Shown here: positions 45,662 through 63,324 of the stretch, piece after piece
Numbering within the stretch: position 1 is the stretch's first letter
How the letters are laid out: every line of letters starts with the position of its first letter
Assembly (NCBI RefSeq): GCF_019443425.1
Contig: NZ_CP080382.1
Span: forward strand, 1,612,001-1,676,000
From: Arthrobacter sp. PAMC25284
GTDB lineage: Bacteria > Actinomycetota > Actinomycetes > Actinomycetales > Micrococcaceae
Direction: 5' to 3'
Length of the DNA: 64,000 nucleotides
Program-made: the position numbers and the translations under genes
The notes under the pieces: generated by a model
What the model saw: only the letters and a program-made list of their open reading frames with translations
What the model was told of the DNA's origin: nothing
The model's database searches: none

Positions 45662-47872
45662 GTGACTGAGGTTTTCGATTTCGACTACCTACAACCGCGC
45701 ACGTGGGGCGATGCCTTTCCTTGGCTGTCCGGCACCGCTGGGACCGGCGATTCCCTGCGGTGGAGCCGAGCAATCAGTGAAACAGATCAGGCCAATAAGC
45801 GGGACAACCTCGTGCAGATCGCCGAACTGGCGATGCAACGTCTCTCGCACTGGACGATCGGATCGATCTTTCCCGGACTGTCCCCGGAAATTGACTTGCT
45901 GCAGCTACACCTGCCAGTCCGTGCAATCAACGCCTTGACCCGCTTCGAGTGTGGGCGATCAGGCGACCTGATGGTGCTCACTCTCGATAACGTGCTGAGC
46001 TGGCGCCAAGTCGGAGTCGGCACCGTCGACGCCATCCTGCAGACTCTGGCTGACGTGTCGACGTCTTTCGTCACGCCCTCGGTCACGTCCAAGAAGGAGC
46101 GGTTCGAAGCTGCCTCTGTTCTTCCCCCCGACGAGGTTCGTCCGACGGAGTGGATGTGGGCGGTCAACGATGACCTGACCCGGATCGCCACGTGGTTTGC
46201 CACCATTGGGCTGCCCGGTCAGGCAGTCCTTGGCGACCCGCTACCGCCCGGCACCCCAGATGAAGTACTGAAGGCACGCCAGCGGCTAGAATGCCTGTCC
46301 GCCGACCAGATCCTCAACGAAGGTGAGCTCAAACTGGACATCGCTGGGCGCTTCGATGTTGCTCTGCGCATGCTAGACCCCCGGGCAGCCCAGATCCTGG
46401 GGCGCCGACTTTTCGCAGACGAGCCGGTGACCCTCGATCGGCTGGCTGGCGAGCATGGAGTTACCCGTGAACGCATTCGCCAGATCGAGGGGAAGGCCCG
46501 CGGTGCGATGCTCGCCTTCATCTCCGAGGGAGGTGCGTTGGCTGATGTGGCCGAATCGGCACGAACTTTGATCGGCACCATTCGACCGCTCAACGAGCTC
46601 CTCGAACTCATCCCCGCGCTTGGAAAAGCTGTCGAGACGGTCGGCCAACCGGCTTGGCGCGTCCTTGATCGCCTCGATGACGGCTACGAAATTGAGGACG
46701 GCTGGTGCGTCATGCCGACCATGACCGCCGCGGAGACCACCACGCAGACTTCGCTCCAGGAGCGCGCCAACCAGTACGGGGTCGTCCGTCTCGACGAGTT
46801 TGACCTCATCCAGTCCGGGCACCCTGAACGGCTCGGGGAGCTCCGTGCCGCGTGGATTGGCCACTGCGGCTACATCGTTGACGGTGAATTCGTGCTCTCC
46901 CGCACGCAGTCGGTTGGTGATTACGCCGCCGCCGTGCTGTCGATCGAGGGGTCACCGCTCAGGGCCCAAGAGATCGTCGACCGATTCGTGTTCGAACGGA
47001 GCGTACGCTCCCTCGCGAACGCCTTGAGTGGCGACGACCGTTTCGAACGGGTCGATCGGGATCGATGGGCCCTCAAGGAGTGGGGCTTGGACGCATATTC
47101 GGGGATCCGTTCGATCATCCGTCAGCAGGTTGCCGAGGGAGGTGGGCGGGCTAAACTCAGCGACATCATCGAGTTCATCACGGCCAGGTACAGCGTAAGT
47201 GGCAGCAGCGTCGCCGCGTACGCAGGGGCCGCCCCCTTCGGAATCAGAGATGGTAAGGTCCAGCTTGCCACTGCCGAGCAAGGAGCGCGGCGTGCGCCCG
47301 AGCGGACTCGTCGGCTTTTCCGCCGCCCCGATGGCTGGGCCTACCGAGTTCGTATCTCTACTGATCACCTGCGAGGTAGCGGCTCAGTCGCACCACAAGC
47401 CATCGCGACGGTGCTGGACCTTCATGCCGGAGAAACGCGGCAGCTTGATTCGCCACTCGGACCCCAGGCAGTGGCGTGGACTGGCCCGCAACCCTCATTC
47501 GGCACGATTCGGCGATTCCTGATGAAGGACGACATGGCGACTGACAGTGAAGCATTCCTCGTGATCCACGAGGACCACAGCTTCACCTTTGAGCAGACTC
47601 GCGAGTTGATCGGAGATCCCCTCGCGGACGCACTCTCGCTGGTTGGCGCCCCGCCGGAGATCGACCGTGAAGCAGCCCGAACCGCACTGGCTCGAGCTTT
47701 GTCCCTGCCCGACGAATCCCCCGCTTCGAGCATCATTGGCGGCTACCGCGAGCGGGGAGATAACGACGTCGCCGAACTCCTGCTGTCCATTCGGGAGCAA
47801 CTGGAGGCCGGCTACACGCCGTCCGAGTCCAGGCACAGCGCCGACGTCAATGAAATACTCGGTCTGCTGTGA
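45662..47872 (+). CDS. large DNA-binding protein with sigma-region-4 and HARE-HTH-like domains
   Basis: A 736-aa protein, first of a five-gene defence operon. Residues about 90-140 (LPVRAINALTRFECGRSGDL, LTLDNVLSWRQVGVGTVDAI) resemble the helix-hairpin of the RNA polymerase alpha C-terminal domain. Residues 252-280 (VTLDRLAGEHGVTRERIRQI) are a sigma70 region-4 HTH. Residues about 418-478 (SVGDYAAAVLSIEGSPLRAQ, DDRFERVDRDRWALKEWG) look like a HARE-HTH, and 490-530 like another. The C-terminal 200 residues have no known domain. GGGGGACAA precedes the GTG start. It likely recognises DNA, perhaps modified DNA, or controls the operon; not a normal sigma factor, since regions 1-3 are absent. Confidence 0.72.
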   Translation: MTEVFDFDYLQPRTWGDAFPWLSGTAGTGDSLRWSRAISETDQANKRDNLVQIAELAMQRLSHWTIGSIFPGLSPEIDLLQLHLPVRAINALTRFECGRSGDLMVLTLDNVLSWRQVGVGTVDAILQTLADVSTSFVTPSVTSKKERFEAASVLPPDEVRPTEWMWAVNDDLTRIATWFATIGLPGQAVLGDPLPPGTPDEVLKARQRLECLSADQILNEGELKLDIAGRFDVALRMLDPRAAQILGRRLFADEPVTLDRLAGEHGVTRERIRQIEGKARGAMLAFISEGGALADVAESARTLIGTIRPLNELLELIPALGKAVETVGQPAWRVLDRLDDGYEIEDGWCVMPTMTAAETTTQTSLQERANQYGVVRLDEFDLIQSGHPERLGELRAAWIGHCGYIVDGEFVLSRTQSVGDYAAAVLSIEGSPLRAQEIVDRFVFERSVRSLANALSGDDRFERVDRDRWALKEWGLDAYSGIRSIIRQQVAEGGGRAKLSDIIEFITARYSVSGSSVAAYAGAAPFGIRDGKVQLATAEQGARRAPERTRRLFRRPDGWAYRVRISTDHLRGSGSVAPQAIATVLDLHAGETRQLDSPLGPQAVAWTGPQPSFGTIRRFLMKDDMATDSEAFLVIHEDHSFTFEQTRELIGDPLADALSLVGAPPEIDREAARTALARALSLPDESPASSIIGGYRERGDNDVAELLLSIREQLEAGYTPSESRHSADVNEILGLL

Positions 47873-50004
47873 CCGCTACGCCCCGGGGACTCCGGTCGCT
47901 CCTCCTCAGCGACCGCTACCGCAGCGACAAAGAAGATGTCGTACAGACATTCTTCGTGCCCGCGTTCACCGTGGCGTCGAGCTACAGCAGGGCCGTCGGT
48001 TACTTCACATCAACCAGCCTCGCGCTCTTCGCACGCGGCATCGAGACCTTCGCTGAGCGTGGTGGCGCCATGCGGCTCGTCGCCTCACCGCACCTGGATG
48101 AGGATGATCTTGTCGACATCGAGCGCGGCTATGACGTGAGGGCCGTGGTTGAGAGAGCCACGTTGCGCGAACTCGAACAGGAGCAGCCGGACACTGTCCT
48201 CGACGGGCTCGGACTCCTCGGCCGGCTAATCGCCGAAGGGCGTCTCGACATCAAACTCGCCTTCGTCCAGCAGGAGGGCCGCGTCGGGATTTACCACGAG
48301 AAAATCGGCGTCTTCCGAGACGATGTCGGCGACCTCGTCGGATTCACTGGTAGCAGCAACGAGACGTACGGCGGCCTTATGGCCAACTTCGAATCGGTCG
48401 AGGTGTATCGCGGCTGGTTTCCCGGCGATGGCACGCGAGCACTCCGGCTCGAAGCCGACTTCCAGGCGCTCTGGTCGAACCAGACGCCGCACCTCTCCGT
48501 GGAGCGCTTTCCCGATGTCGCGCGTGACCGCCTCATCAAGCTCGGGGACGAGCGTCCACACCGCCAGCTACTGGGCACGGACAACGCACTTACGCCGACG
48601 CCTACTAGGGCAAGCGAGCCCACCCGGCTAGCAATCCCCGATTGGATAAGCGTCCGCGACTACCAGCGTGAGGCAGTCACGTCCTGGCTCGGCCGCCAGG
48701 GCCGCGGAATCCTCAAGATGGCGACGGGAACAGGGAAGACCAAGACGGCCATGATTGGCGCCACCCAACTGGCCACCGTCCTCCGCCAGCGCGAACAGCC
48801 GCTGGTGCTGCTCATCGTGGCGCCGTTGACTCACCTTGTCGACCAGTGGATCACCGAGGTGGAAGACTTCGGTGTCAAACCCATCGCTGTCTACGAGTCG
48901 AGCCAGAAGTGGCTGCCGATGGTTGAAGAGCAGCTCGCGGCGGCACGCATGGGACAGCGCCCGGTCGTTGCATTGGTCGCCACGAACGCATCGTTCGCAG
49001 GTGAAAAGTTCCAGTCGGTGTTGGCGCGCATCACTCTGCCACTCCTGATCATTGCGGACGAAGCGCACAACCTAGGATCATCGACGTACCGTTCAGCGCT
49101 TCCCACCAACGCCACGTACCGCCTGGCTCTCTCGGCGACGCCTGAACGGTGGTTCGACGACGAGGGGACTGACTCTCTCACCGACTACTTTGGCCCGATA
49201 ATTTTCGAGCTGGGGCTCGGCAAGGCCATCGAGATGGGTGCGTTAACCCGGTACGAATACCTGCCTCGACTGATCGAGCTGAACGATGCCGAGACCAGTC
49301 TCTACGTTGAGTTATCCGCGCAGATCGCGACCCGGATCGGGGCCGGCGACAGTCTCAAGGACGCTGATCCCGACTCCCCGCTCGGATTCCTTCTGCGTCA
49401 ACGTGCGGGGGTGCTCGGCCACGCGGAGGGCAAGCTAGCCGCCGTTCGTGAGGACCTCAACGCCCGGCGCGACGAGTGGTTTCAGCTCGCCTACTGCGCC
49501 GAAGGGAGGAGGCCAGCGGAGACTGGCGCGCCTCCCGGTCCGAAGCAGGTCGACGAAGTGATGAATCTACTCGGGAATCAGTTGCACCTTTCTGCACACC
49601 CCTACGTCTCAGAGACACCGCGACCGGAGCGCAAGGTGCTGCTCCGCCGCTTCGGTGCAGGTGATGACCTCCGAGCGCTCGTTGCGATGCGCTGCCTCGA
49701 CGAAGGCGTCGACATCCCGGATGCCCGGATCGGCTACCTGCTCGCGAGCAGCAGCAACCCCCGGCAGTTCATCCAGCGCCGCGGTCGCTTGCTGCGTCTT
49801 GCCGAGGGCAAAGAGCGCGCCGTAATCCTGGACTATCTCGCAGTGCCGCCCGAGAGCACAAGTGTCAACTTCAACGTCGAACGAGCGCTACTCGTTCGAG
49901 AGTTCGAGAGGGCCAATGAGTTCGGCAAGTTGTCCGAGAACTACGAAGCGACACTGCAAGCGCTGCGACCGCTCAAGGAGCGGTACCAGCTCATGGACAT
50001 GTAG
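47869..50004 (+). CDS. PLD-nuclease/DEAD-box helicase fusion, probable Dnd restriction protein
   Basis: A 711-aa protein. Residues 30-215 form a phospholipase-D-type nuclease: YSRAVGYFTSTSLALFARGI, then YHEKIGVFRDD (the HxK motif), VGFTGSSNETYGGL. A superfamily-2 helicase follows: QREAVTSWLGRQGRGIL, Walker A MATGTGKTKTAM, DEAH in IIADEAHNLGSSTY, LALSATPERW, and motif VI QFIQRRGRLLRLAEG. This architecture corresponds to proteins called DNA phosphorothioation system restriction enzyme. It probably moves on DNA and cuts unmodified targets. GTG start overlaps the preceding stop by four bases. Confidence 0.82.
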   Translation: MTATPRGLRSLLLSDRYRSDKEDVVQTFFVPAFTVASSYSRAVGYFTSTSLALFARGIETFAERGGAMRLVASPHLDEDDLVDIERGYDVRAVVERATLRELEQEQPDTVLDGLGLLGRLIAEGRLDIKLAFVQQEGRVGIYHEKIGVFRDDVGDLVGFTGSSNETYGGLMANFESVEVYRGWFPGDGTRALRLEADFQALWSNQTPHLSVERFPDVARDRLIKLGDERPHRQLLGTDNALTPTPTRASEPTRLAIPDWISVRDYQREAVTSWLGRQGRGILKMATGTGKTKTAMIGATQLATVLRQREQPLVLLIVAPLTHLVDQWITEVEDFGVKPIAVYESSQKWLPMVEEQLAAARMGQRPVVALVATNASFAGEKFQSVLARITLPLLIIADEAHNLGSSTYRSALPTNATYRLALSATPERWFDDEGTDSLTDYFGPIIFELGLGKAIEMGALTRYEYLPRLIELNDAETSLYVELSAQIATRIGAGDSLKDADPDSPLGFLLRQRAGVLGHAEGKLAAVREDLNARRDEWFQLAYCAEGRRPAETGAPPGPKQVDEVMNLLGNQLHLSAHPYVSETPRPERKVLLRRFGAGDDLRALVAMRCLDEGVDIPDARIGYLLASSSNPRQFIQRRGRLLRLAEGKERAVILDYLAVPPESTSVNFNVERALLVREFERANEFGKLSENYEATLQALRPLKERYQLMDM

Positions 50005-50044
50005 GAGGGTCGATGAACGACAACCGCAACAAGGGAGAAACCGA

Positions 50045-50206
50045 GTGAGTCAGAATCGCACCGAGAAGCAGGTGCTTGAGGAACTGAGCGATGAGCAGCG
50101 CGCTCTCCTAAAGCGCGTGCTCGAGATCGAGCGCGCCAAGCTCCACATCAAGGCCTTCGACGCGACCGACGACTTGGTCGCCGCAGTGAAGGAGATCATC
50201 CCGTGA
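50045..50206 (+). CDS. 53-aa helical protein of the defence operon
   Basis: A GTG frame codes EKQVLEELSDEQRALLKRVL and EIERAKLHIKAFDATDDLVA, almost wholly helical with a heptad-like start. It has GGGAG upstream and overlaps the next gene by four bases (GTGA). No family is known to me. Its position between helicase and ATPase suggests an adaptor. Confidence 0.75.
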   Translation: MSQNRTEKQVLEELSDEQRALLKRVLEIERAKLHIKAFDATDDLVAAVKEIIP

Positions 50207-52261
50207 AACTGCAATCGATCAGCCTCACGAACTTCCGTCAGTTCAAAGGCACGCAGTCCTTTGAACTGACCTCGGACGCTATCAAACCAGTCACCCTGTT
50301 GTTCGGCGCTAACGGCGCCGGCAAGACCACCTTGTTGAACGCCTTCACTTGGGCCCTGTACGGAAATATGTCCGACGACGTCGAGCAGCAGGACCGCATG
50401 GTCACCGACAGCGTGTGGCGGTCGCTTGCAGTCGGCAGTTCGGTCGATGTCTCCGTCGAGGTGTGCTTCGACCACGAGAGTCAGAACTACCGCCTCGTTC
50501 GCAAGGGGACTCTCCGCAAGGAATCCGACCACCAGGGCCCCGGCCACTGCCCAACTTCAGCTCTGGACAACCCGTCCTGATGGTTCCTCTGAAGTCAGCC
50601 AGGCGCCGCAGGAAACTATCTTTAGCATCCTGCCAGTCGGCGTCAGCCGATTCTTCTTCTTTAATGGCGAGCGCATAGAGAACCTCGTGAAGAAGGGCGC
50701 CTACGCCGAAGTCCAGAAAGACATCAAAGTGTTGCTCGATCTCGAGCAGGTCGAGCGTGCGATCGCCCACCTGCCGAGGGTGAACCGGCGGCTAACCGAC
50801 GAGCTCAAGAAGCACGGCGGCGAGACCGCGAGTGCCATCCAAGACGCGATCGACACACTGACCGACCGGCAGACTAGGGCCAAGGACGAGCTCAAGCTAG
50901 TCGAAGGCGACCTTGCCACTCTCGATGAGGAACGCGATCGCACCACCGATTTGCTGCGTCAGCATGCGGAAGCGGCGCCGATCCAGGCCGAGCGCGACGC
51001 CGTAACGAAGGAGTTGACGGAGGCCCGAGCAGCGAGGGACAAGGCTCTGACCGATCGCGCCGTCTTGATCGCGACGCGGGGTTTTCAGGCATTTACAGAC
51101 ATCCTCGGACAGAAGACCAAGGCGATGGCGGACAGCCTCTACCAGAAGGGCGCTCTGCCGGCGCCCCTGAAGCGTGAGTTCGTGGACAAGCTGCTCGACG
51201 ACGGCACCTGTATCTGCGGTACCTCGCTCACCGAACACTCAGAATCATGGGATCACGTGAAGGAGTGGCGTCAACGGGCTGGCCTCCAGGCGGTCGAGAC
51301 CGCCTGGCAGCGCGTCAGTGGCCAGATCGCGCCTCTAGCCGACGCCCGGGTAGGCCTGCGCGACGACCTCGCCAACCTGCTCAATCGCATTGGGTCTGAG
51401 CGGGACCGAGTCGCCCGCCTCGAAGCGCGAAAGTCCGAACTCGACGGCAAGCTCAAGGACAGTCGCCAGGAGGGCGTCCAAGCCCTGGAAACAAAGCGTA
51501 TGGACCTTGAAGGTCGTATCGCACTCAAGAACCAGCGAAAGGGTGCCATCGAGACTGACCTGGTCAACCTCACCAAGGAGATCGACCAGAAGACCACGGA
51601 GAGGTCCCGCGCCCAAGTCACCGACGAGTTGGCCAGCAAGGCGCGCTCCCGGTCTGACCTGGTGCAATCGGTGAAGCGGGCACTCGAGGAGATTCTGGCG
51701 ATCCGCGAAGAGGACATGCGGCTCCGCCTCGATGCCGAACTAAAGTCGGTGTTCAAGAGCATCACCCACCAGGCACACGTGCCCACTCTCAGTGAGGGTT
51801 TCGAACTGACGCTCCACAAGAACGTCAATGGCGTCGAACTGCCCGTGCCCAAGTCGACGGGTGAGAACCAGATCCTGAGCCTAAGCTTCGTCGCTGCTGT
51901 CTCGAAGCTCGCGCGGGAGATTCGCAAGGAACGCCGAGCCGAGGGTGCGGCGGCCGACGACGCGGGAACCTTCCCGATAGTGATGGATGCGGCCTTCGGC
52001 TCACTCGATCAGGATTACCAGGAGGCCGTTTCTCGGGCGCTCGCGAAGATGGCGCCGCAGCTCGTCGTCCTGGTCAGCAAGAGCCAGGGCCTCGGCAAGG
52101 TGGTTACCGAGCTACTCCCCTATGTCAGCCACCTCGGGGTCATCGAGACCCACACGACGGCGGCAGGCAGCGTGTCCGACGATATCGAGCTGGAGGGCAT
52201 GTCGTATCCCTATATCCGGTCGGCCGACTCCGACCACTCCGAGCTGAAGGTGATCAAGTGA
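50203..52261 (+). pseudogene. DndD-like SMC/Rad50-type ATPase, single frameshift
   Basis: The N-terminal part (from GTG 50203) reads SISLTNFRQFKGTQSFELTS, Walker A LLFGANGAGKTTLLNAFTWA. After GGGCCCC (50535-50541) the frame changes; the other frame carries SRFFFFNGERIENLVKKGAY, a long coiled coil, a zinc hook DGTCICGTSL, signature STGENQILSLSFVAAVSKLA and Walker B PIVMDAAFGSLDQDY. One extra base explains everything (2,059 bases = 686 codons + 1). It is a paralogue of DndD at 61002-62981. Presumably it clamps DNA for the helicase-nuclease. A sequencing error is likely. Confidence 0.85.
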
Positions 52262-52728
52262 TAACCGCACCGAGTGACGTCAGGGCCCGCAGGCCGCAGC
52301 AGCACGAGGCCCTCATGAAGGAACTCCAGGCTGAGGGCAGGTTCTCGACCTTCCGCGATATTCTGCTCTTCGCAGCTGCCGTCGGGTTCCGCCAAGAGCG
52401 GAGGGTACCGTTCACCACCGCATCGGGGGATATCCGCAGCGACGTTCTGCTGGGGCCTGGGTTCAGCGACACGTTAATTAACATGATCGCCGCCAACGTA
52501 GTGACCGAGGATCCGGAAATCATGGACGACACCCGGATGGACGAGCGCTTCAAGATCTTCGAGGAGTACGCCAACGGTGGGTTGGAGTACATCCAGGAGC
52601 AGGTCAACGTCCGACACCAGCCGGCAGCCCTTGTGGTCGTCGACCTGGTGACGGAGGCGTTCGCGGATGATAGTGGGGCAAAACCCGTGTCGGTCGACGA
52701 GCTGCTTGGCGGAGTGACCTGGGGATAG
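52258..52728 (+). CDS. dnd system-associated protein 4-like
   Basis: A 156-aa protein. VRARRPQQHEALMKELQAEG, STFRDILLFAAAVGFRQERR, VPFTTASGDIRSDVLLGPGF match what I know of dnd system-associated protein 4 (R-RRP..H..L...L...G.F.T.RD...FAA..GF...RR.PF). It overlaps the ATPase stop (ATGA-like GTGATAA). No enzyme motif is seen. Its family has been linked to phosphorothioation islands, which supports a joint role of this operon with dndABCDE. Confidence 0.75.
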   Translation: MITAPSDVRARRPQQHEALMKELQAEGRFSTFRDILLFAAAVGFRQERRVPFTTASGDIRSDVLLGPGFSDTLINMIAANVVTEDPEIMDDTRMDERFKIFEEYANGGLEYIQEQVNVRHQPAALVVVDLVTEAFADDSGAKPVSVDELLGGVTWG

Positions 52729-52770
52729 CGCTACCAGATGCCGGTCTTCCGAGTATCACGCCGCCGTGCG

Positions 52771-53217: not shown

Positions 53218-53223
53218 CACGGA
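53218..53223 (+). repeat. target-site duplication, left copy (CACGGA)
   Basis: CACGGA at 53218-53223 recurs at 55868-55873, just outside the two ends of the IS21 element. It lies within the codons that the insertion duplicated in the methyltransferase gene. Confidence 0.9.
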
Positions 53224-53357: not shown

Positions 53358-54137
53358 TTAGTTCATTGGGGTGACTCCTTTTCCGGCGAGGGCCTGACTG
53401 AGGCGGATTGAATCTCCTGAGGTTTGGCAGACGTGCGCGTGGTGCAGCAGCCGGTCGACGGTGGCTGTGGCCAGGGTTTTAGGCATGAGCTCGTCAAAGC
53501 CGGCGGGGTGCAGGTTTGAGGAAACCGCGACGGAGCGTTTCTCGTAGGCGGCGTCGACGAGGCGGTAGAGGCCCTCCGCCGCGTCCGTGCCCACCGGCAA
53601 GAGGCCGATGTCATCGACCACCACCAAATCTGCGCGGAGGATCCGGGCGACGACTTTGGTGACGCTGTCATCGGAGCGGTGGGCGCGCATGAGGGCCCCG
53701 AGGTCCTCGAGCCGGAACCAGGCGACCCGCAGGCCGGCTTCGACGGCCTGTTGCCCGAGGGCTTCGAGGAAGAATGTTTTGCCGGTGCCGGAGGGGCCGC
53801 AGATCACGACGTTTTCCTTCCGTCCGATCCATTCCAGCGTCCGTAGCGCCTGCTGTGTCGGGGCGGGGATCGAGGAGGCGGACGGGTCCCAGGTGTCGAA
53901 GGTTTTCCCGGTCGGGAAGCCCGCGGCCTTGCGCCGGGTGGCGAGCATGGACCGGGACCGGCCGGCGACTTCCTCGACGAAGAGGGCCTTGATGACTTCG
54001 GCCGGTTCCCAGCGCTGGGCGCGGGCGGTCGCGATCAGTTCCGGTGCCAGCGCCCGTGCGTGGGGCATCTTCAGTTGCCGCATCAGCGCCTCCAGCTCCG
54101 CCGGCAGGACTGGCGCGGTGGCCGGGACCGGGCTCAT
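53358..54137 (-). CDS. istB: IS21 helper ATPase IstB
   Basis: A 259-aa AAA+ ATPase that selects targets for IstA. Walker A is ICGPSGTGKTFFLEALG, Walker B ADLVVVDDIGLLPV, sensor region SVAVSSNLHPAGFDELMP, and the C-terminus has VDRLLHHAHVCQTSGDSIRL as in other IstB proteins. The start at 54137 overlaps istA. No defect is seen. Confidence 0.95.
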   Translation of the reverse strand: MSPVPATAPVLPAELEALMRQLKMPHARALAPELIATARAQRWEPAEVIKALFVEEVAGRSRSMLATRRKAAGFPTGKTFDTWDPSASSIPAPTQQALRTLEWIGRKENVVICGPSGTGKTFFLEALGQQAVEAGLRVAWFRLEDLGALMRAHRSDDSVTKVVARILRADLVVVDDIGLLPVGTDAAEGLYRLVDAAYEKRSVAVSSNLHPAGFDELMPKTLATATVDRLLHHAHVCQTSGDSIRLSQALAGKGVTPMN

Positions 54138-55720
54138 GCGCTTTCTCCCAGGGTGCCGGCGGAACTGGCGGCAGCGGGTGGTCGGCCGATCGCGGCCCAC
54201 GCGGCGGTGCCCTGTGTCAGGGACCGGGTTTCCCCGGCGGCGTGGGTGGTGGTGCGCGTGCTTGAGGCGTTCAGGATTGAGGCGAGGTCCTTGTTCGCGA
54301 AGCGGCCATGGATGGCCGCGGTCCCCAGGGCCTGGTCGACTTCGGACTGCCCGGCGATCTTGGCCAGGGCGACCGCTTCGGCCATCTTCACGTTCATCCT
54401 CGCGGTGCCCGCCGCGGCGGCCTCGAGCAGCCAGGTGCGGGCGCCGGCGCCGATGCTAAGGAACTCCGCTTCCGCGGCCGTCCTGGCTTTGGCCGTGTAT
54501 TCACCCGGGATCCTGGGCCTATGGTCCGGGAAGTGGGCGTCGTTGATCGCCGGGCTGCCGGGCCGGGCGCGCCGGTGCCGGGCGACTTCGACCGGGCCGC
54601 CGCTGCCGTGGTGGACGATGATGACCTGCTCATCGGGCCCGGCGCCGTGGGCTCGGACGAACACCCTCGCGCCGAGCAGATACGCCGGGACGGAGTACTG
54701 CCCGTTCTCGAACGTGACCATCGGCGTGTTCTCCGGGACGGCCCGGGAGAGCCCGAACGCGACGGTGTGCGCGGTGTCCGGGATCCGGTGCAACCGCGGC
54801 GCTTCCTCGGCCAACATCGCGGCGGGTTTACGGCGGGTGGCGCGGTGTTCACGGGTATTGACCTCGTCCATGAACGCCTGGCACGCCTGTTCGATCTCGG
54901 CGAAGGAAGCGTATTCGGCACGCAGGTTGGTGTCCTTGGGCACGATGTCGGCCTTGGCGAGCTTCACCGAGGACTCCACGCCGCCCTTGGACGCAGGGTC
55001 CGCCGGCTGGCAGGTCAACACCGTCACGCCGTAGTGGCGGGCGAAGTCGACCGTCTGCTGGTTGCGGACCGGGACCCCGGCAACATGGGACACCGTCACG
55101 GTCTTCTCGTTATCGGTCAGGACGTAGGTCGGGGCGCCGCCCAGAACACGGAAGCTGCGGTCAAGAGCTGCGAACACGCTCGGCGCCGTCCGGTCCCGCA
55201 GCGCGATCACGACTCTGAAGCGGGACCACGCCAGCCAGGCCACGAACAAAACGGTCTTCTTCCCCTCGATCACGGGGCCGTCGCCGAAATCGTACTGAAG
55301 CCACATCCCCGGTTCTGTCACCCAGGGCCGGTGCACCCGGACGTGGCCGAGCCGCCAGGCGGCGCGGACCTGCGCGACGGCCCGGCGGGTCGAGCGCTCC
55401 GAACCCTCATAGCCGAGGGCCAGGAGTTTCTGGTGGGCTTTGTCGGCGCGGATCTTGCCCCTGGAGGCCTCGATCCATTCCTCGATCTTGGGCAGGAACG
55501 CATCGGTGACCCGGCCGCGATAGACCGGTTCGGCGATCGGCTGGCCGGCGTCCCGGGCAGCGACGTGCCGGGCCACCGTGTGATGCGAGCAGCCCGTGAG
55601 TTCCGCGGCGGCGCGCAACGATCCGGTCAGATCATACGCAGCAAGTATTTCCATGATTTCTCCGTCAAACTTCATTAGGGCCTCTTCCCGGGCGACTTTG
55701 GTGCGACTAGACACCGTCAT
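54134..55720 (-). CDS. istA: IS21 transposase IstA
   Basis: A 528-aa DDE transposase. The N-terminal HTH (LRAAAELTGCSHHTVARHVA) precedes the catalytic core: Asp in WLQYDFGDGPVIEGKK, Asp in APTYVLTDNEKTVTVSHV, Glu in DPASKGGVESSVKLAKADIV. The Mu-type C-terminal beta barrel follows (VTFENGQYSVPAYLLGARVF). ATG 55720 is chosen over TTG 55723. It is intact. Confidence 0.95.
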   Translation of the reverse strand: MTVSSRTKVAREEALMKFDGEIMEILAAYDLTGSLRAAAELTGCSHHTVARHVAARDAGQPIAEPVYRGRVTDAFLPKIEEWIEASRGKIRADKAHQKLLALGYEGSERSTRRAVAQVRAAWRLGHVRVHRPWVTEPGMWLQYDFGDGPVIEGKKTVLFVAWLAWSRFRVVIALRDRTAPSVFAALDRSFRVLGGAPTYVLTDNEKTVTVSHVAGVPVRNQQTVDFARHYGVTVLTCQPADPASKGGVESSVKLAKADIVPKDTNLRAEYASFAEIEQACQAFMDEVNTREHRATRRKPAAMLAEEAPRLHRIPDTAHTVAFGLSRAVPENTPMVTFENGQYSVPAYLLGARVFVRAHGAGPDEQVIIVHHGSGGPVEVARHRRARPGSPAINDAHFPDHRPRIPGEYTAKARTAAEAEFLSIGAGARTWLLEAAAAGTARMNVKMAEAVALAKIAGQSEVDQALGTAAIHGRFANKDLASILNASSTRTTTHAAGETRSLTQGTAAWAAIGRPPAAASSAGTLGESA

Positions 55721-55867
55721 CAAACCCCGGGGAGAGGCTCCCGCCGCTTAAGCAGCAGGGTTCAGTAAGGAAGTGGGCAGATCTCATGGCCACCAACGGG
55801 CAGTTTTCAAGGCCGTCAGTGGGCAGTTCCGTGGCCGCCTACGGGCAGTTTTCCATGGCCGCTAACA

Positions 55868-55873
55868 CACGGA
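55868..55873 (+). repeat. target-site duplication, right copy (CACGGA)
   Basis: Right copy of the 6-base duplication; see 53218-53223. Both copies are identical, so the insertion is recent. Confidence 0.9.
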
Positions 55874-57113
55874 AGCCAACAGTGAGATTGCGCAAGCTGA
55901 CTGTCGTTGCTGACTCAAGGGTCGGGTGCGCATCTCGATCGAATCGAGGATATGACAGGTATGACACCTGCGGTTCGACAACTGACAACTTGATGAGGTT
56001 TGCGTCCGGAACACTGCCCGAAAGAATTCGTGCGCACGCTTCGTACACCTGAAGTAGCGGCGGTAGCTCCCCTAAGGCTGAAACATGAACGTACAGGGCT
56101 GTCGGCGTTTGCTTTCCGACCCTAGAACCTCGGGCGGCCAAATAGACCGAGACGGAGTTACCGGCTGCCAGCAGCAGTTTGTCTGCACGCCGGCACGCCT
56201 CGCGGTAGGTTCCGAAAAGCGACCGAATGTCAGCAGCGAGGCTTGCGCTGAGCTGCGTGAACTTTGGCCTGGAAGAGAATCGGGACAGGGCGACGTAGAT
56301 CAGAAGCTCTTCCTTTCGTCGCCGGATCAGTTCTTCCCATTGGGCGTCCTCGATTACCTGCCGGATGAGACTGGCGGCAGCCCGTAGCGATCCCAGAGCG
56401 CGGCAGACTTGAGCCTCATCCGACGGGAGCAGTTCCCCCGGCCGCGGCGGACGAGCATGGTCCATTAGAAACGCTAGCAACGAGGCGAGATCGTCCGCAT
56501 GTTGCTCGTATCTGACGCGAGGATCGAGTCGAATCCTGGGCCGATAGCTGTAGATCCGATTGTTCAAGAAGTCTTGTTCGGTGGCCGAGTCCCGAAACAC
56601 GTAGAAAATCCCGGGCGCGGCAGCCAGAGGGCGAACGCCAATAGTTGAAGATATCCATTCGGACAGTTCCGCTTGATCGAAGAACTTCTGAAAAGTGCCT
56701 ATCCGGGTCCTAATCCCATCGCCGAACGAGCTACCAGCCAGATCTCGTGCCTCCCAATTTAGGCGGGCTGAGACGACCAGAACTCTCGTAGCGAGCTCCC
56801 ATGCATGCTGCAAGGCGATGGCTCGCTCGAAAGGATCTTCGATGACATTGACCACGTATCCCAAATTGACGACATCGGCGGCTATCAAAGCGCAGTCAGG
56901 CTGGAAATGAGGGTCCCAGCCGTCTGCCGTGTAACCAAGTTCTCGCAAGGTTCGGAGATCATGTCCGCGCCCGCAACCGAAATCGAACAATGTCCAAGAG
57001 GGCTTCAATACTCCGTCGCCTATCGCGGACGATACGGGCCGTGACAAGCCGACCCGGGTCATCGCAGTCCGGCCACGGTCAATTGGCGGTATCACGACGG
57101 CGCCAATCGGCAA

Positions 57114-58244
57114 TTAGTGCTGCAAAGCCGCAATTCGCTCGTGCAGCTGGTCCAGATCGACAGATGGGGCGCCCCACCAGGAGAAACGGATTGAACCATC
57201 GATTTTCTCCCTCTCAACCGACATGGCTTCCAGAACATGGCTTGGTGCATAGCTGGCGCTAGTGCAGGCGGATCCTGTAGATATTCCTACCGCGTCTTGA
57301 AGAGTCAACACCAGCGCTTCACTGTCGACCCCCGGAAACGAGACGTTCAGGATGTGGGGCGCGGCGTTAGCTGCAGCCCCATTGACTGATCCGTTGAGGT
57401 CGCGGACCAAGGCGCTGAGGAGCTCACGGAACCGAAGGGTTTCACGAGTCCAAACCTCGCCATCTTCCAGACGTTCTCTGAGCGCTTCGCAAAGCCCCAT
57501 GACGAGTGGTACGGGAAGAGTGCCCGGCCTGAGCTTTCGTTCCTGCCCTCCCCCGAACATGAGGGGTTGCAACGGAACTGGCTTCCATCCGCGCCGGCGG
57601 ATGATGAGTCCCCCGATTCCTTTCGGTCCACCAATCTTGTGGCCGCTGAAGCTCACCATGTCGATGGGAGCAGCCAACTCGTTGTGTCGAACCTTTCCGA
57701 AGCTCTGCGCAGCGTCGACGTGGAAATAGATGGCCGTACTCGACAGTTGTTTCGCCAGCTTTTCCACAGGCTGTACCACGCCCGTTTCGTTGTTGACGTG
57801 CATGAGCGAAACAAGAAGTGTGTTCTCCCGTACTGCAGCCATAACTTGGTCCACTGAGTGGCTCCCGTCGGTCTGAGGCTTCAAGAAGTCCACGTCGAAC
57901 CCGTTCTTGGCCAGATGCTCCAGAGGCTCCAACACGGCCTTGTGTTCTGTAGCGGAAGTCACGATGTGCATCCGTCCCGTGGAACGACCGTGGGCCGCCA
58001 ATCCCAGGAGCGCGATGTTGTTGGATTCTGTAGCCCCGGAGGTGAAGATGAGCTGGTCGGGACCGACCCCAACCGACCGTGCGATATATGACCGCGCTTC
58101 GGCAACTGCTTTCTTGGCTGTATTACCCCAAGTGTGAGTCCGGGAGCCGGCATTCCCGAACTCCTCCCGCATGTAGTGGCTGACGACAGCCTCGACACGA
58201 GGCGATACGGGAGTGGTAGCCGCGTAATCAAGGTATGCTGTCAT
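57114..58244 (-). CDS. dndA: cysteine desulfurase DndA
   Basis: A 376-aa PLP enzyme of the NifS/IscS class that takes sulfur from cysteine for DNA phosphorothioation. It begins MTAYLDYAATTPVSPRVEAV. Key parts: LIFTSGATESNNIALLGLA, HVDAAQSFGKV, the PLP lysine in VSFSGHKIGGPKGIGGLIIR, and the catalytic Cys near residue 327 in GISTGSACTSASYAPSHVLE. The ATG at 58244 is preferred, since the family begins here; ATG 58289 would add 15 unrelated residues without a ribosome site. It lies divergent to dndB and directly upstream of the methyltransferase. Confidence 0.93.
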   Translation of the reverse strand: MTAYLDYAATTPVSPRVEAVVSHYMREEFGNAGSRTHTWGNTAKKAVAEARSYIARSVGVGPDQLIFTSGATESNNIALLGLAAHGRSTGRMHIVTSATEHKAVLEPLEHLAKNGFDVDFLKPQTDGSHSVDQVMAAVRENTLLVSLMHVNNETGVVQPVEKLAKQLSSTAIYFHVDAAQSFGKVRHNELAAPIDMVSFSGHKIGGPKGIGGLIIRRRGWKPVPLQPLMFGGGQERKLRPGTLPVPLVMGLCEALRERLEDGEVWTRETLRFRELLSALVRDLNGSVNGAAANAAPHILNVSFPGVDSEALVLTLQDAVGISTGSACTSASYAPSHVLEAMSVEREKIDGSIRFSWWGAPSVDLDQLHERIAALQH

Positions 58245-58290
58245 ACCTGCATCATACTCGGATGACGCTTTGTATGTTATTCCTTTCATC

Positions 58291-58320
58291 TTGTACGTTA
58301 TCGCTTTAACGTACTAGACT
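58291..58320 (+). promoter_or_regulatory. dndB promoter with overlapping palindrome
   Basis: GTACGTTA-TCGCTT-TAACGTAC (58293-58314) is a perfect 8-bp palindrome. It fills the spacer of TTGTAC (58291-58296) and TAGACT (58315-58320), 18 bases apart. The dndB ATG at 58327 follows only six bases later, implying a leaderless mRNA. A related TGTATGTTAT lies at 58271-58280 toward dndA. A repressor here would control both directions; DndB-type or TetR-type regulators are known for dnd genes elsewhere. Confidence 0.6.
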
Positions 58321-58326
58321 CATGGC

Positions 58327-59461
58327 ATGTCCTCTCCTAAACGAACCGCCTCATCCCGGACTGGCGGCGGATTCTCAATTTCGTTTCCTGCCATGAGGGG
58401 TATCCAGGCGGGCCGAGAATTCTACGTGATCATGTGCCCACTAAGGCACCTTCCGAAGCTCTTTCTGTTCGACGAGGAACCAGTACCTGCGGAGCTGCGC
58501 GCTCAGCGGGCTCTAAATCGGAACCGGGTTCCTGCCCTGACCAAATACATCGTTGACAACCGGCACGACTACGTTTTTAGCGCACTGACGGCCAGTATCG
58601 ACGGAGAGATGGCGTTCGAGGCAGTCCAAGACGACGCAGGTCATACGAATCGTCTAGGCGTTCTGAGTATTGCCATGGATGCGCGCTTCCTGATCAACGA
58701 CGGACAGCACCGGCGTGCTGCGATAGAAGATGCAATGGCGATCGATCCGACGCTGATGGAGGAGACCATTCCGATTGTCATCTTCGGGGACGAGGGCCCT
58801 CAGCAGATCACAGCAGATGTTTGCTGACTTGAACAGGCACGCCATTCGGCCGGCCAAGAGCATCGGCGTTCTCTATGACCATCGCGACGACGAGTCTGCC
58901 GTGGTTCGCCTCGTTGTTTTGAAGTCCCCGTTCTTCCGGGGAGTTGTCGAGACTGAAAAGAGCAATCTGTCCCCGCGCTCGGGAAAATTATTCACCCTAT
59001 CGGCACTGTACAACGCCACCCTCAGCCTCTTCTCGGGCCTGCAGTTCGACGCCATAGAAACTGCAGCCGCCGTAGCCAGAGACTTCTGGGAAGAAGCGGC
59101 TCGACATTTTCCGGAATGGCAGCAAGTCAGTGATCGGTCCGTATCCGCGGGCGAAATTCGAACCGAGTATCTCCACAGTCACGGCATCGCGTTGCACGCG
59201 CTGGGGAAAGTTGGAAATGTTCTCCTCAGGCAGAGCTTGGAGAAAGATGACTGGGTTCCATCGCTGCAAAAACTGGAAAGCATTGATTGGCGCCGATCTA
59301 ACACAAAGACGTGGGAGGGTCGCGCGATGATCGGCGGACGAGTCTCAAAGGCAACCAACAACGTCGCCCTTACCACCAACTTCATTAAGACCCAATTAGG
59401 CATCGCGCTGACTCCAGAAGAGCAACGAGCCGAAGACAACTACCTAGAAGGAGCTCGATGA
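58327..59461 (+). pseudogene. dndB: DndB (DGQHR-motif regulator), single frameshift
   Basis: The first frame reads FYVIMCPLRHLPKLFLFDEE, LTKYIVDNRHDYVFSALTAS, and the hallmark FLINDGQHRRAAIEDA (DGQHR at 125-129). After GGGCCC (58794-58799) it continues in the next frame with RSQQMFADLNRHAIRPAKSI, GVLYDHRDDESAVVRLVV and the rest up to 59461. One extra C accounts for the break (1,135 bases). DndB is a regulator of phosphorothioation level in other species. Its stop overlaps the dndC start. A sequencing error is likely. Confidence 0.88.
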
Positions 59462-61012
59462 GCAAGGTCAGCGTTAGCCTTCCATTTGGCGGCCGCACGC
59501 TAAGCACGGCTGTGGATCACTTAGTGACGGAAATCCAGAACCTCTACCAAGAGGACAATACCCCCTGGGTTGTTGGGTACTCCGGCGGCAAGGACTCTAC
59601 TGCCGTACTCCAACTCGTTTGGCTCGCCCTCAAAGGGTTACCAGCCGAAAAGCGTTCCAAGACCGTACACGTGATCAGCACGGACACCTTGGTCGAGAAC
59701 CCCATTGTGGCGTCGTGGGTGACTTCGTCACTGATAACCATGGAGCGGGCGGCTCAGGAACAGGGCATCCCTATCGAACCGCACCGCCTCACTCCCGAGA
59801 TCAAGGACACCTTTTGGGTGAATCTAGCAGGAAAAGGCTACCCGGCCCCACGCCCGAAATTCCGATGGTGCACCGACAGGCTGAAGATCAAGCCTTCGAA
59901 CAAATTCATCAAGAGTCAAATCAAGCAGTATGGCGAGGCCATTCTCGTTCTGGGCACAAGAAAAGCCGAAAGCTCGGCTCGGGCAGCCTCGATGACGAAA
60001 CACGAAAAAGGGCGAATGCGGGACCGGTTGTCCCCGAATGGAAGCCTCCCGGGCAGCTTGGTTTACAGCCCCGTTGAAGACTGGTCGAACGATGACGTGT
60101 GGCTCTTCCTCATGCAAGTCGCGAACCAGTGGGGCTACCCCAACAAGGACTTGCTCACCATGTATCAGGGGGCTAGCGCCGACGGCGAGTGCCCGTTGGT
60201 CGTCGACTCGTCCACGCCCAGCTGTGGAGACTCGCGCTTCGGCTGCTGGACGTGCACGCTCGTCGAGAAAGACAAATCGATGACGGCCATGATCCAGAAT
60301 GATGAGGAAAAGGAATGGATGCTCCCTCTCCTCGAGCTTCGCAACGAGCTGGATGTTGTAGATGACCGGCCACTTCGCGACTTCCGCCGCATGGCCGGTA
60401 ACGTGACCCCATTTCACGATGCAACTGTGCCGGGACCGTACACGCAGGATGCACGAGAAAACTGGCTGCGAAAATTGCTGCAGGCTCAGGAATGGGTGCG
60501 CGAGCATGGCCCTGAGTCAACAGTGGAAATCGAACTCATCACAATCCCCGAACTCCACGAAATTCGACGGATCTGGGTCTTCGAGAAACACGAAATCGAG
60601 GACTCTCTGCCGCGTATCTACCAGGAAGTCACCGGACGAGAGTTCCCAGGGCGGCCCCTTGAAGAAAACATGGTTCTGGCAAGTGACGATGTCGAGATCC
60701 TCAAGGAGATCTGCGGCGACGACAGGCTGCATTTTGAGATGACGCGATCACTTGTTGCAGTAGAGCGGAGCCACCGCACAATGGCCCGCCGCGCCGGTCT
60801 ATACGACCAGCTCGAGAAATCCGTTCGCCGCGCGTTCTACGACGGTGAAGAGGATGCCACGGAGCGGGGCCCGAACCCTTAGCCAGGCGAAGAACCTCCG
60901 CAAGGAAGGATTTAAGGTCGTACGCGACGACGAATCCACGGAGGACGAGTCGTCCTTTGCGGACGTTCCCGAAGCCAATGAGAACGACCAGAGGTTGGAC
61001 CGTGTTTTTTAG
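59458..61012 (+). pseudogene. dndC: DndC (PP-loop sulfurtransferase), frameshift near its C-terminus
   Basis: The main frame, 474 aa to 60882, holds the PP-loop VVGYSGGKDSTAVLQLVW (SGGKDS at 42-47), FRWCTDRLKIKPSNKFIK, VLGTRKAESSARAASM and the Cys-rich block SCGDSRFGCWTCTLVEKDKS for a [4Fe-4S] cluster. It activates target phosphates and passes sulfur. At GGGGCCC (60866-60872) the frame ends early; one less G gives EDATERARTLSQAKNLRKEG and SSFADVPEANENDQRLDRVF to TAG 61012 (517 aa), overlapping dndD as usual. The 474-aa form could still be active. Confidence 0.88.
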
Positions 61013-62981
61013 CGAACTAAGCATTGAAAACGTCGGGGTCTACAGGGGACGTCAGACCCTGGATTTGAGAACTGAGAAGACCCGGCCGGTTATCCTCATC
61101 GGTGGCATGAATGGCTGCGGAAAGACCACTCTGCTCGATAGTCTCCACATGGCGCTGTACGGGCGCCGCGCAAGACTGTCGAACCGGGGCAACCTTGGGT
61201 GGGAACCCTTTCTGCGTCAAAGCATCAGCCGTGGAGTTCCCGCCTCGCATGGTTCTAAACTCGCCCTTACCTTCCGGATTGACCATGAAGGGTCCGAAAG
61301 GGAGTATCGGGTCGAAAGGTCATGGCGAGTTCGGAACTCCTCACTGGATGAGACGGTGAATGTATTCCTAGACGGAAAGTTCAACCGTGCTCTCTCGGAA
61401 GGGTGGGCCGAACACGTGGAAGAGATCCTCCCCTTGGAGATCGCAAGCCTCTTTCTCTTCGACGGCGAGAAAATTGAATCCCTCGCGGACCCGGACACCG
61501 CCGCGACGGTGGTCCGCTCTGCAATAGATTCGCTTCTGGGCATCGGCACTATCAAGCAGCTTCGGGCTGATTTGAGGGCTCTGCAGCGTCGGCAGCCCTC
61601 AGTTGCCTCTGACTCAGATTCAGAAGCGACGCTACAAGGGCTCGAGACCGAACGTGCGGTAGCTTGTGATGAGTTGGACCGTCTTGCCCAGGCTGAAGCT
61701 GCCGCGTCAAATGATGTGCGTGCCGCCCAGAAACTGCTATCAGCGGCCGAGGGCCGTTTTGAGTCAGATGGCGGCACGTTGTTTCTACGGCGAAAGGAAT
61801 TGGAGGACAGCCAAGCAAGGCTGCAACGAGAGATTGCTAGCGCGCGCCAACTCCTTCATGAAACCGCCGCAGGCATCTACCCCCTTGTCCATCTGTTGGA
61901 TCAACTGGGCGAGCTGTCAGCGCAGGCCGAAAGCGACGATGGAAAGCGGCTTTCAAGTCGCGTAGCTCGAGTTCTAGAGACTCGGGATAGAGAAATCGTT
62001 GCGAAGATGCCTGCTGAGTTCAAGAACCTTCTTGCCGCGACCCTCGAATCAGATCGTCGTGGAAGGAACGTTGAAGCCGACTCCATTCCAATTACAGAGC
62101 TCTCCACTTCGGGGAGGGCACAGTTGGCAACCCTCGAAAGCACGCTACTGGCTGCGGAAACGGCCGCCAACGAGAAGCTGGCCTCACTTGAATCTCTGAA
62201 ACGTGAACTAGATGAGGTGGACGGTCAACTGGGTGGCGTGCCTGATGACGCCACCATCGCGGTCCGTATCAACGAGGTCAATGCAGCTCGCGAGGTACTT
62301 GCTCGAAGTCAAGCGAAGGTTCATTTCATCCAAGAAGAACACGCGCGGGGCGTCGTAGTTCTCGAGTCCGTGGAATCCCGCCTCGCTGTTGCTGAGGCCA
62401 AGAGAATTGAACTCAGTGTTCAAGCCGAGGACGTGCAACGCATCGTTGCGCACACCGAGCGCGTGCGACAAACGCTTGTCACGCTTGCCGAACGTCTCAC
62501 CGAGCGGCACCTGGGCAGGATCGAGGTTGCCACTCTCGATAGCCTACGGCGGCTCATGCGCAAGGATTCGCTGGTTCGCGATCTGAAAATTGAACCGACC
62601 AGTGGCCGAATCGTGCTTTTTGACTTCGAGGGTGAGGAAATGTCGTCGAGCCGGTTGAGTGCAGGTGAACGCCAGCTCCTGGCCGTCGCCCTGCTGTGGG
62701 GACTCGCCCGCGTCGCGGGTCACCGGTTGCCCACCGTCATTGACACTCCCCTGGGCCGTCTCGACAGTCAACACCGGATGAACCTCGTTGACCGGTACTT
62801 CCCCGTTGCCGGCAACCAGGTGCTTCTGCTCAGCACGGATCAGGAAATTGATGAAGACTTGATGCGACGACTGTCCGGATCAATAAGTAGGAGTTACCTG
62901 CTCTCCAATGACGCCACTACAGGCTCTACGACAGTGAAAGACGGCTACTGGTGGGACATGGAGGAATCTAATGTCGCTTGA
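61002..62981 (+). CDS. dndD: DndD, SMC-like ATPase of DNA phosphorothioation
   Basis: A 659-aa ATPase. VFFSELSIENVGVYRGRQTL leads to Walker A ILIGGMNGCGKTTLLDSLHM. After the N-terminal lobe (ASLFLFDGEKIESLADPDTA) come long coiled coils; the ABC signature is SSSRLSAGERQLLAVALLWG and Walker B LPTVIDTPLGRLDSQHR. Known DndD acts with DndC and DndE to place sulfur in DNA. GTG 61002 with AGAGG upstream is preferred over 60957 since homology begins there. It overlaps dndE by 11 bases. Confidence 0.92.
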   Translation: MFFSELSIENVGVYRGRQTLDLRTEKTRPVILIGGMNGCGKTTLLDSLHMALYGRRARLSNRGNLGWEPFLRQSISRGVPASHGSKLALTFRIDHEGSEREYRVERSWRVRNSSLDETVNVFLDGKFNRALSEGWAEHVEEILPLEIASLFLFDGEKIESLADPDTAATVVRSAIDSLLGIGTIKQLRADLRALQRRQPSVASDSDSEATLQGLETERAVACDELDRLAQAEAAASNDVRAAQKLLSAAEGRFESDGGTLFLRRKELEDSQARLQREIASARQLLHETAAGIYPLVHLLDQLGELSAQAESDDGKRLSSRVARVLETRDREIVAKMPAEFKNLLAATLESDRRGRNVEADSIPITELSTSGRAQLATLESTLLAAETAANEKLASLESLKRELDEVDGQLGGVPDDATIAVRINEVNAAREVLARSQAKVHFIQEEHARGVVVLESVESRLAVAEAKRIELSVQAEDVQRIVAHTERVRQTLVTLAERLTERHLGRIEVATLDSLRRLMRKDSLVRDLKIEPTSGRIVLFDFEGEEMSSSRLSAGERQLLAVALLWGLARVAGHRLPTVIDTPLGRLDSQHRMNLVDRYFPVAGNQVLLLSTDQEIDEDLMRRLSGSISRSYLLSNDATTGSTTVKDGYWWDMEESNVA

Positions 62982-63324
62982 TTTTGTGCGTATTTCTCAG
63001 TCCGGGCGTGACCAGTTGATTCGCCTCAAGCGGCACACGGGTATTCAGAACTGGAATGTCTTGTGCCGGTGGGCTTTTTGTCTCTCCTTGAAGGACAGCA
63101 ATCCCCCCTCGCTGTCCCCGATTGTGACTGATTCCAACATCGAGATGACCTGGAAGACTTTTGGCGGCAGCCATGAAGAGATCTACAAGGGTCTGATTCA
63201 GGTCAGAGCCGTACAGGACGGCTTCGAAAGCTATGACGCAGCCCTTGTTGCCCACGTCCATCGCGGCCTGAGCATACTCCTGGCCAAGGAAATGAATTCC
63301 ATCGAGGACATATTCTCGAGCTAA
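62971..63324 (+). CDS. dndE: DndE, nicked-DNA-binding component
   Basis: A 117-aa protein. VRISQSGRDQLIRLKRHTGI and QNWNVLCRWAFCLSLKDSNP are the DndE signature (RLKRxTGIxxWNxLCRWAFCxSL). Known DndE binds nicked DNA as a tetramer. The end has DAALVAHVHRGLSILLAKEM. ATG 62971 overlaps dndD. It closes the dndBCDE operon; a hairpin follows. Confidence 0.93.
   Translation: MSLDFVRISQSGRDQLIRLKRHTGIQNWNVLCRWAFCLSLKDSNPPSLSPIVTDSNIEMTWKTFGGSHEEIYKGLIQVRAVQDGFESYDAALVAHVHRGLSILLAKEMNSIEDIFSS

Follow-up and report, generated by a model that had tools for sequence, protein, structure and literature searches.

Introduction

The pbeABCD genes were described in archaea, next to dndCDEA (Xiong et al. 2019, PMC6459918), where pbeB, pbeC and pbeD are reported to be absolutely required and pbeA partially required for protection. 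More recently, Rakesh et al. (2024, PMC10853773) identified the pbe genes as a CxC ABC-ATPase-DndE system and counted 936 bacterial as well as 41 archaeal taxa with tandem systems of DndD plus CxC type. The mechanism of PbeABCD is disputed: the earlier work concludes that it acts otherwise than by direct cleavage of viral DNA, the later one argues for cleavage. Here we describe a DNA phosphorothioation (PT) island of Arthrobacter sp. PAMC25284. It occupies positions 45662-63324 of a 64,000-nucleotide (nt) stretch of contig NZ_CP080382.1 (positions 1,612,001 to 1,676,000), hereafter the window, to which coordinates refer unless another sequence is named. In it, a DndABCDE phosphorothioation module is coupled to the restriction module PbeABCD, which here carries a fifth, sigma-like gene that we label sig. 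The type of system is known; the operon consists of PbeABCD and this one additional gene, its first, for which we infer a function.

With DndCDEA-PbeABCD (PMC6459918) the island shares a PLD-helicase, a small protein, an ATPase and a protein of about 150 amino acids (aa), in the same order and beside dnd. It differs by the sigma-like gene overlapping pbeA, by dndB, by a methyltransferase-like gene and by its actinobacterial host. In common with the CxC ABC-ATPase-DndE systems (PMC10853773) it has the HKD nuclease plus superfamily 2 (SF2) helicase, the small protein, the CxC ATPase, the cognate DndE and the tandem DndD-DndE module; the accessible text of that paper names no protein with sigma-4 and alpha-CTD parts, the single mention of sigma found there being an insert in some DndH. 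A literature search on sigma or HARE with phosphorothioation, Pbe or defence, which included the accessible text of PMC10853773, PMC6459918 and PMC12839542, gave no description of the fifth gene; it may be listed in supplements or subscription papers, which lay outside the search. MzaA of the MZA system (NF041931, PDLC02203) is a defence-associated protein of about 700 aa that also contains sigma-70 region 4. However, region 4 is all that aligns (35.8 bits, cut-off 800), and no other Mza model occurs among the PADLOC matches listed.

In a preliminary description of this DNA, made from the sequence alone, the five genes had been taken for an unusual restriction half of the island. In all 15 close actinobacterial loci compared they do behave as a unit that is paired with Dnd, but the operon is not a new restriction half, because four of its five genes are the published PbeABCD.

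Results

A Pbe operon headed by a fifth gene

The pbe half of the island (45662-52728) consists of five co-oriented plus-strand genes, the starts of which overlap or almost touch according to the coordinates of the open reading frames (ORFs). It is separated by an IS21 element from the dnd half (55839-63324). The first gene, sig (45662-47872, +), encodes 736 aa and is followed by pbeA (47869-50004, +), the 711-aa product of which has a PLD-like (HKD) domain fused to an SF2 helicase (PADLOC PbeA, E 3.3e-253). Against TIGR04095 PbeA scores 530.6 bits, under the cut-off of 600, a value reached by none of 394 class genomes; its helicase domains lie above the Pfam cut-off, PLDc_2 gives 24.3 bits versus 27, and an HKD-type motif is found at residue 143. 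The 53-aa small protein encoded by pbeB (50045-50206, +) has no Pfam match at E 1 and was assigned by its position between pbeA and pbeC. A small protein 56-86% identical to it occupies the same place in all 14 other loci of the set introduced below. The CxC (Zn-hook) ABC ATPase gene pbeC (50203-52261, +) is split into pieces 50203-50580 and 50426-52261, the second of which matches PADLOC PbeC (E 2.6e-200); the CxC is found in DDGTCICGTSL. The last gene, pbeD (52258-52728, +), encodes 156 aa and corresponds to DNA phosphorothioation-associated protein 4, which is DndE-like and the cognate partner of PbeC (TIGR04062, 83.0 bits, cut-off 74.25); its product had no PADLOC match at E 0.01.

The five overlapping plus-strand ORFs of the preliminary description are borne out. 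What it had listed as a PLD-helicase, a 53-aa protein, a zinc-hook ATPase and associated protein 4 are PbeA, PbeB, PbeC and PbeD. Its island coordinates are right, and its dndA/dndBCDE set is supported by NCBIfam, Pfam or PADLOC matches.

Domain composition of the sig product

The sig product contains an alpha-CTD-like segment (residues 77-130), sigma-70 region 4 (234-280), a sub-threshold HARE-HTH (422-474) and a conserved C-terminal region. Its first characterisation as sigma-4/HARE-HTH-like stands for the sigma part, which is solid (PF04545, 33.7 bits, cut-off 24.1) and matched in 12 of 12 family members. It does not stand for HARE-HTH (PF05066), which scores 13.3 bits against a cut-off of 25.9 and is listed for 5 of the 12 members (best E 0.027). 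Searching the own genome with PF05066 returned one sub-threshold match (E 0.196), which falls on sig and spans profile positions 7-71. The alpha-CTD-like segment was found in 11 of the 12 members; the window protein reaches 21.0 bits versus a cut-off of 23.8. Sigma70_r2 was matched neither by the window protein at E 1 nor among the 11 families found in the 12 members, and a true sigma-70 factor was ruled out on the ground that region 2 was not found.

When a profile of the whole protein was compared with solved structures, the best 60 of 94 chains were all sigma factors matched at region 4 (1tty, E 1.3e-9); for the middle, HARE-like and C-terminal parts these profile searches found no credible relative. 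The helix pattern [TS]RER[IV]RQ[IVL]E is kept in all 15 sig loci, and also in 5 of 7 other sigma-like proteins tried (missing in L101 and L062). In sigma factors, this region 4 helix is the reader of the -35 element.

The 220 nt before sig hold no word widely shared among the 15 loci: the best 7-mer occurs in 5/15, and TTGAC in 5/15 against 2.1 in shuffles. A shared promoter motif upstream of sig was rejected, as nothing is widely conserved. A -35-like TTGACT at 45506 is a single consensus match, and a promoter-like pattern is present in the window only, of the 15 loci.

Linkage of sig to pbe in close actinobacterial loci

Fifteen close loci were compared, namely the window, L031-L041, L045, L046 and L104; L042 was left out, since a contig end cuts the locus. 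They come from a scan of genome contigs with sig (12 loci), two class-sample genomes, one Arthrobacter plasmid and the window. All were found through sig except the window and the plasmid, the latter found via both sig and PbeA. In the contig scan, sig lies directly before pbeA-B-C-D in 11 of 12 loci, the twelfth being cut by the contig end. The order sig-pbeA-B-C-D is kept in all 15 loci, and if pbeA is read from its closest possible start, the overlap with the sig stop is 4 nt in 14 of them and 1 nt in one. dndC is on the same record throughout (15/15). It lies within the examined stretch in 12 loci and just outside in L032, L034 and L038, where it is about 8, 8 and 10 kb from pbeD, on what contig numbers and coordinates indicate to be the same contig. 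The tabulation of neighbours in other actinobacteria that the preliminary description had proposed therefore returns the five genes as one unit paired with Dnd. The partnership had been said to fail if the operon were regularly found without dndABCDE. This is half the case: PbeABCD in general does occur without Dnd (PMC10853773, section 16), and the close actinobacterial five-gene form was accompanied by dndC each time it was found. Around the pbe regions of Lactiplantibacillus plantarum plasmids no annotated dnd gene was seen within the 6-7 kb examined on each side.

Protein distances were compared across loci, dropping those with a match to less than 70% of a gene (n = 15, 15, 14 and 15 for sig, pbeA, pbeC and pbeD, and 7, 10 and 9 for dndA, dndC and dndD). 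The distances of sig follow those of pbeA (r 0.83), pbeC (0.75) and pbeD (0.81; Mantel p 0.0005 each), and are not significantly related to dndC (r 0.32, p 0.10), dndA (0.05, p 0.43) or dndD (0.29, p 0.11). Likewise, dndC goes with dndA (r 0.82) and dndD (0.96), and pbeA gives 0.09, -0.37 and 0.23 against dndC, dndA and dndD. Because there is co-variation within pbe and within dnd, and none that is significant between them, the two modules have, as far as sequence distances tell, probably been re-paired, with sig belonging to the pbe module.

Sigma-like neighbours of pbe in other genomes

PbeA relatives were found on 25 plasmid records, of which 18 were opened, two (L. plantarum H23 and H25) were read by match name and five were left out. 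A sigma-like gene flanks pbe in 6 of the 18 opened regions, from Arthrobacter, Pontibrevibacter, Ruegeria, two L. plantarum and Aurantiacibacter; in H23 and H25 a sigma-like gene is named under the match. Sigma-like genes beside pbe therefore reach Rhodobacterales, Sphingomonadales and Lactiplantibacillus. In all six regions except that of Aurantiacibacter, where it is downstream of the gene at the pbeD position, the gene is upstream of pbe and overlaps it by 4 or 1 nt (as annotated, 4 nt in the two L. plantarum and 1 nt in the two Rhodobacterales loci). The Arthrobacter plasmid gene was assigned by homology, as its record is without annotation. Outside Actinobacteria the common parts are region 4 and, in some proteins, the alpha-CTD-like segment, the remainder being without recognisable similarity.

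Where L. plantarum has the sigma-like gene, its PbeA is 457-458 aa long and has no PLD domain. Relocation of this domain to the sigma-like protein was considered and rejected, as that protein gives no significant match to a profile of the PbeA N-terminus. The PbeA relatives of L100, L101, L113 and L114 are without a detectable PLD domain; the nuclease part of PbeA is therefore not universal.

Among 394 class-sample genomes, a PbeA-grade match (>360 bits) is present in seven. Three of these carry sig and two represent distant subtypes, in one of which (G109) a sig relative faces the operon; the other two are taken up in the Discussion.

Two further arrangements were seen on plasmids. In L105 and L108 (Rhizobium and Sphingomonadaceae), the neighbours of pbe are a PAPS-reductase-type gene and genes for a cysteine desulfurase, a DUF4007 protein and a large protein that is either ATP-binding or hypothetical; this looks like Pbe with a different sulfur module. 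In a Natrinema plasmid with an archaeal pbe operon, a TFIIB-family gene (L114:11052-11975) stands two genes after the one at the PbeD position. It is tempting to read it as an archaeal counterpart of a sigma-like neighbour; chance may also have placed it there.

A PbeA-type helicase-sigma fusion in the same genome

About 9.7 kb past the end of the window, the own genome has a gene for an 849-aa protein in which a PbeA-type SF2 helicase (PADLOC PbeA, E 3.3e-61) is fused to a whole sigma-70 factor comprising regions 1.2, 2 and 4 (C1:1685655-1688204, corresponding to L098:11656-14205). This gene is preceded by an ARPP-1 gene and an ADP-ribosylglycohydrolase gene. Near full-length matches to the fusion exist in 5 of 29 genomes, the own one included, the domains having been checked in the own genome and in G002, and two Arthrobacter-group plasmids match it over at least 80%. 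By analogy the fusion lends support to a partnership of helicase and sigma-like protein, and is no proof for sig.

Frame breaks in pbeC and dndB

Both pbeC and dndB span two frames in this assembly, and both switch at a GGGCCC run. Outside this genome, dndB is a single open frame in all 8 relatives, and so is pbeC in 14 of the 15 loci examined. A coding-frame model was applied to 1.2 Mb of the own genome (G000), the breaks being model calls and not proven errors. To leave out possible gene junctions, changes were counted only if the old frame stays open for more than 30 nt past the change and the new frame is already open for more than 30 nt ahead of it. The first run gave 65 calls, 49 of them at GGCC-type runs versus 7.9 expected (GGCCC p 1.4e-31, uncorrected for the 343 5-mers tried). 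With the retrained model 64 frame changes were called, 47 of them with GGCCC or GGGCC within 15 nt, and 46 of these 47 have one sign. For every 100 kb of coding sequence this amounts to about 6-7 putative shifts, versus 2-3 in three other genomes, about a third to half of the rate. GGCCC-type calls make up 2/8, 1/4 and 0/6 of all calls in the control genomes G297, G134 and G188. The break in pbeC is called by the model with the sign of the majority; that in dndB is not called, but its frame change has the same sign. A comparison of seven comparable genes showed one broken in G000 and 0/7 the other way.

Because both island breaks lie at GGGCCC and have the sign of the genome-wide calls, they look like a systematic error, and on this sequence evidence they are probably assembly errors. 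GGCC is the PT site reported for Streptomyces lividans (PMC6186775), and an excess of nanopore read errors has been described at PT sites (PMC9069010). No C5-cytosine methyltransferase was found in the genome, and two of N4/N6 type were. The GGCC-linked error is possibly tied to DNA modification at GGCC; a simple modification signature is disfavoured, because G134 and G188 carry dnd and pbe without the GGCC excess. In the plasmid of Arthrobacter sp. StoSoilB13 (L104, NZ_AP024649), pbeA and pbeC are each in two frames, switching near GGGCC-type runs; elsewhere on this plasmid only two changes were called in two 50-kb stretches sampled (86 kb coding).

The Dnd module and neighbouring genes

Of the modification genes, dndA, dndC, dndD and dndE are present with open frames, and dndB is present but frame-broken. 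On the minus strand lie a gene for a DNA phosphorothioation-associated putative methyltransferase, here labelled dndM (55839-57113, -; TIGR04096, 500 bits, cut-off 150), and the cysteine desulfurase gene dndA (57114-58289, -; PADLOC SspA E 2e-127, DndA E 2.7e-121), which with 479.8 bits for TIGR03235 is 0.2 bits short of the NCBIfam cut-off of 480. On the plus strand, dndB (58327-59461, in pieces 58327-58827 and 58775-59461; TIGR03233, 230.5 and 264.7 bits per piece, whole-protein cut-off 328) is followed by the sulfurtransferase gene dndC (59458-60882, +; TIGR03183, 695.6 bits, cut-off 290.4). A 52-codon ORF (60855-61013, +), which overlaps both genes where dndC ends and dndD starts, has no Pfam match at E 1 and is of uncertain status. 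The ABC ATPase gene dndD (about 61002-62981, +) matches a PbeC-labelled PADLOC model (E 6.6e-204) as well as DndD (E 1.5e-192); it was told from PbeC because its translation, inspected by eye, is without the CxC hook and because it stands beside dndC and dndE. The module ends with dndE (62971-63324, +; PF08870, E 2.4e-32).

In the divergent intergenic region of dndA and dndB lies a 22-bp palindrome, GTACGTTA-N6-TAACGTAC (58293-58314), a candidate DndB operator. The pattern, derived from this site itself, has one match in the window and none in 100 shuffles. Of 8 relatives, 6 have TACG-N6..14-CGTA in their dndA/dndB region; the spacer in the window is 12, and TACG-N10-CGTA is the reported binding site of Salmonella DndB (PMC4507180). 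On the strength of the motif in the relatives and of the Salmonella site, DndB may control dndB and dndA through 58293-58314.

DndF/G/H-type genes had earlier been noted as not seen. None was recognised among the proteins scanned, and own-genome searches with TIGR03236 and TIGR03238 were empty; absence is not established by this, because the same models matched in none of 14 control genomes.

The IS21 element between the two halves consists of istB (53358-54200, -; PF01695, E 5.2e-48) and the transposase gene istA (54134-55723, -; rve integrase core, E 1.2e-12), with imperfect terminal inverted repeats at about 53300 and 55790. A GmrSD-type gene adjoins the dnd module (L098:1419-3371(-), with window 63418-63999(-); GmrSD_N E 9.4e-9, C-terminal part in the window E 0.043). 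Near the island there is also a second PLD-helicase, a type IV restriction enzyme of PLD plus helicase plus DUF3427 type (L098:3271-6426(-); PADLOC mREase_IV, 1126.8 bits). Synteny comparison of the window with same-genus and same-family genomes gave nothing informative.

Discussion

In the island as we picture it, DndA, DndC, DndD and DndE would put sulfur into the backbone of the host DNA, and DndB would restrain this module through the palindrome before dndB. Extrapolating from published Pbe work, the PbeC-PbeD pair may scan DNA and the PLD-helicase PbeA act on unmarked DNA. The sig product would be a multi-domain DNA-binding protein that joins the PbeA helicase as an accessory DNA-targeting subunit and could bring it to promoter-like or transcribed DNA. 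This role is proposed because the -35-recognition helix and the alpha-CTD-like segment are kept and the region needed for sigma action is missing. What the sequences show is gene content, a conserved order, the overlap with pbeA and co-variation; complex formation and targeting are inferred. We give a probability of about one in two to this reading of sig as an accessory subunit that is coupled to PbeA and guides it to such DNA. A bolder version is unlikely: sig, unlike the known PT sensors, would be a fifth Pbe subunit coupling PLD-helicase restriction to transcription, its -35-reading helix and alpha-CTD-like segment serving to bring PbeA to promoters or RNA polymerase on incoming DNA, so that unmarked DNA is stopped as expression begins.

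Several observations weigh against a targeting subunit. PbeABCD is active in haloarchaea from a dnd-pbe construct (PMC6459918), and the word sigma does not occur in the accessible text of that paper; a sig-like protein is therefore not needed for the core mechanism. Twelve of the 18 opened plasmid pbe regions have no annotated sigma-like neighbour. Two of the seven PbeA-grade genomes of the class sample carry, in place of sig, an Lsr2-type DNA-binding gene (L096) and a 418-aa HARE-like protein without region 4 (L095), one genome each. Around sig relatives in the class sample, mostly distant or partial, only 3 of 20 regions have recognisable pbe genes, not counting a fourth in which PbeA is matched weakly (25%). 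In L047, a near full-length, 41% identical sig relative (8953-11025(-)) stands directly before a restriction gene, but one of GmrSD type (6303-8849(-)) instead of Pbe. The sigma factors in the helicase fusions are complete and not of the region-4-only type. Finally, the set of 15 loci, the window apart, was gathered via close sig relatives and for this reason cannot show how often Pbe lacks sig.

It is less probable, at somewhat under one chance in three, that sig is a sigma-4/HTH repressor or activator of the pbe operon which holds back a dangerous restriction module until the host DNA is modified. sig heads the operon, as regulators commonly do, its recognisable domains are DNA-binding, with sigma region 4 and alpha-CTD being transcription domains, and the genes of L096 and L095 show that other DNA-binding proteins can take its place in related loci. 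Yet a length of 736 to about 1080 aa is high for a local regulator (though the Aurantiacibacter protein has 437 aa), no widely shared word precedes sig, and the strict overlap of sig with pbeA suggests matched protein amounts. The evidence fits a PbeA-coupled subunit somewhat better than a regulator. We consider it improbable that sig is a reader which uses its HARE-HTH-like part to distinguish PT-marked from plain DNA and licenses PbeA. For HARE-HTH fused to a restriction enzyme in Dnd neighbourhoods, discrimination of modification has been proposed (PMC10853773), the sole PF05066 match of the own genome falls on sig, and the L047 relative directly precedes a GmrSD-type enzyme; every HARE score, however, stays under the Pfam cut-off, the profile of the region finds no solved structure, and no sulfur-binding domain is listed for the sig members, with the caveat that it was left unchecked whether Pfam models that domain.

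A different objection concerns the island as a whole, which might be a decaying, non-functional remnant, as dndB and pbeC are frame-broken and the halves are split by IS21. Both breaks are in the sequence, pbeC is needed for protection (PMC6459918), and the StoSoilB13 plasmid copy also has broken pbeA and pbeC, with few breaks in its sampled remainder. Against this, the assembly has a general excess of breaks at GGGCC/GGCCC with one sign, both island breaks lie at GGGCCC, and the other island genes are open; we therefore regard decay as unlikely.

Gene finders that search only for PbeA-D will overlook the fifth gene. The probable re-pairing of the pbe and dnd modules suggests that mark and attack evolve separately. 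If restriction were indeed coupled to transcription through sig, the PbeA-type helicase-sigma fusions found within the genus would represent another form of transcription-coupled restriction. As a conserved neighbour of PbeA with parts of transcription factors, sig offers a concrete handle on the disputed mechanism of PbeABCD.

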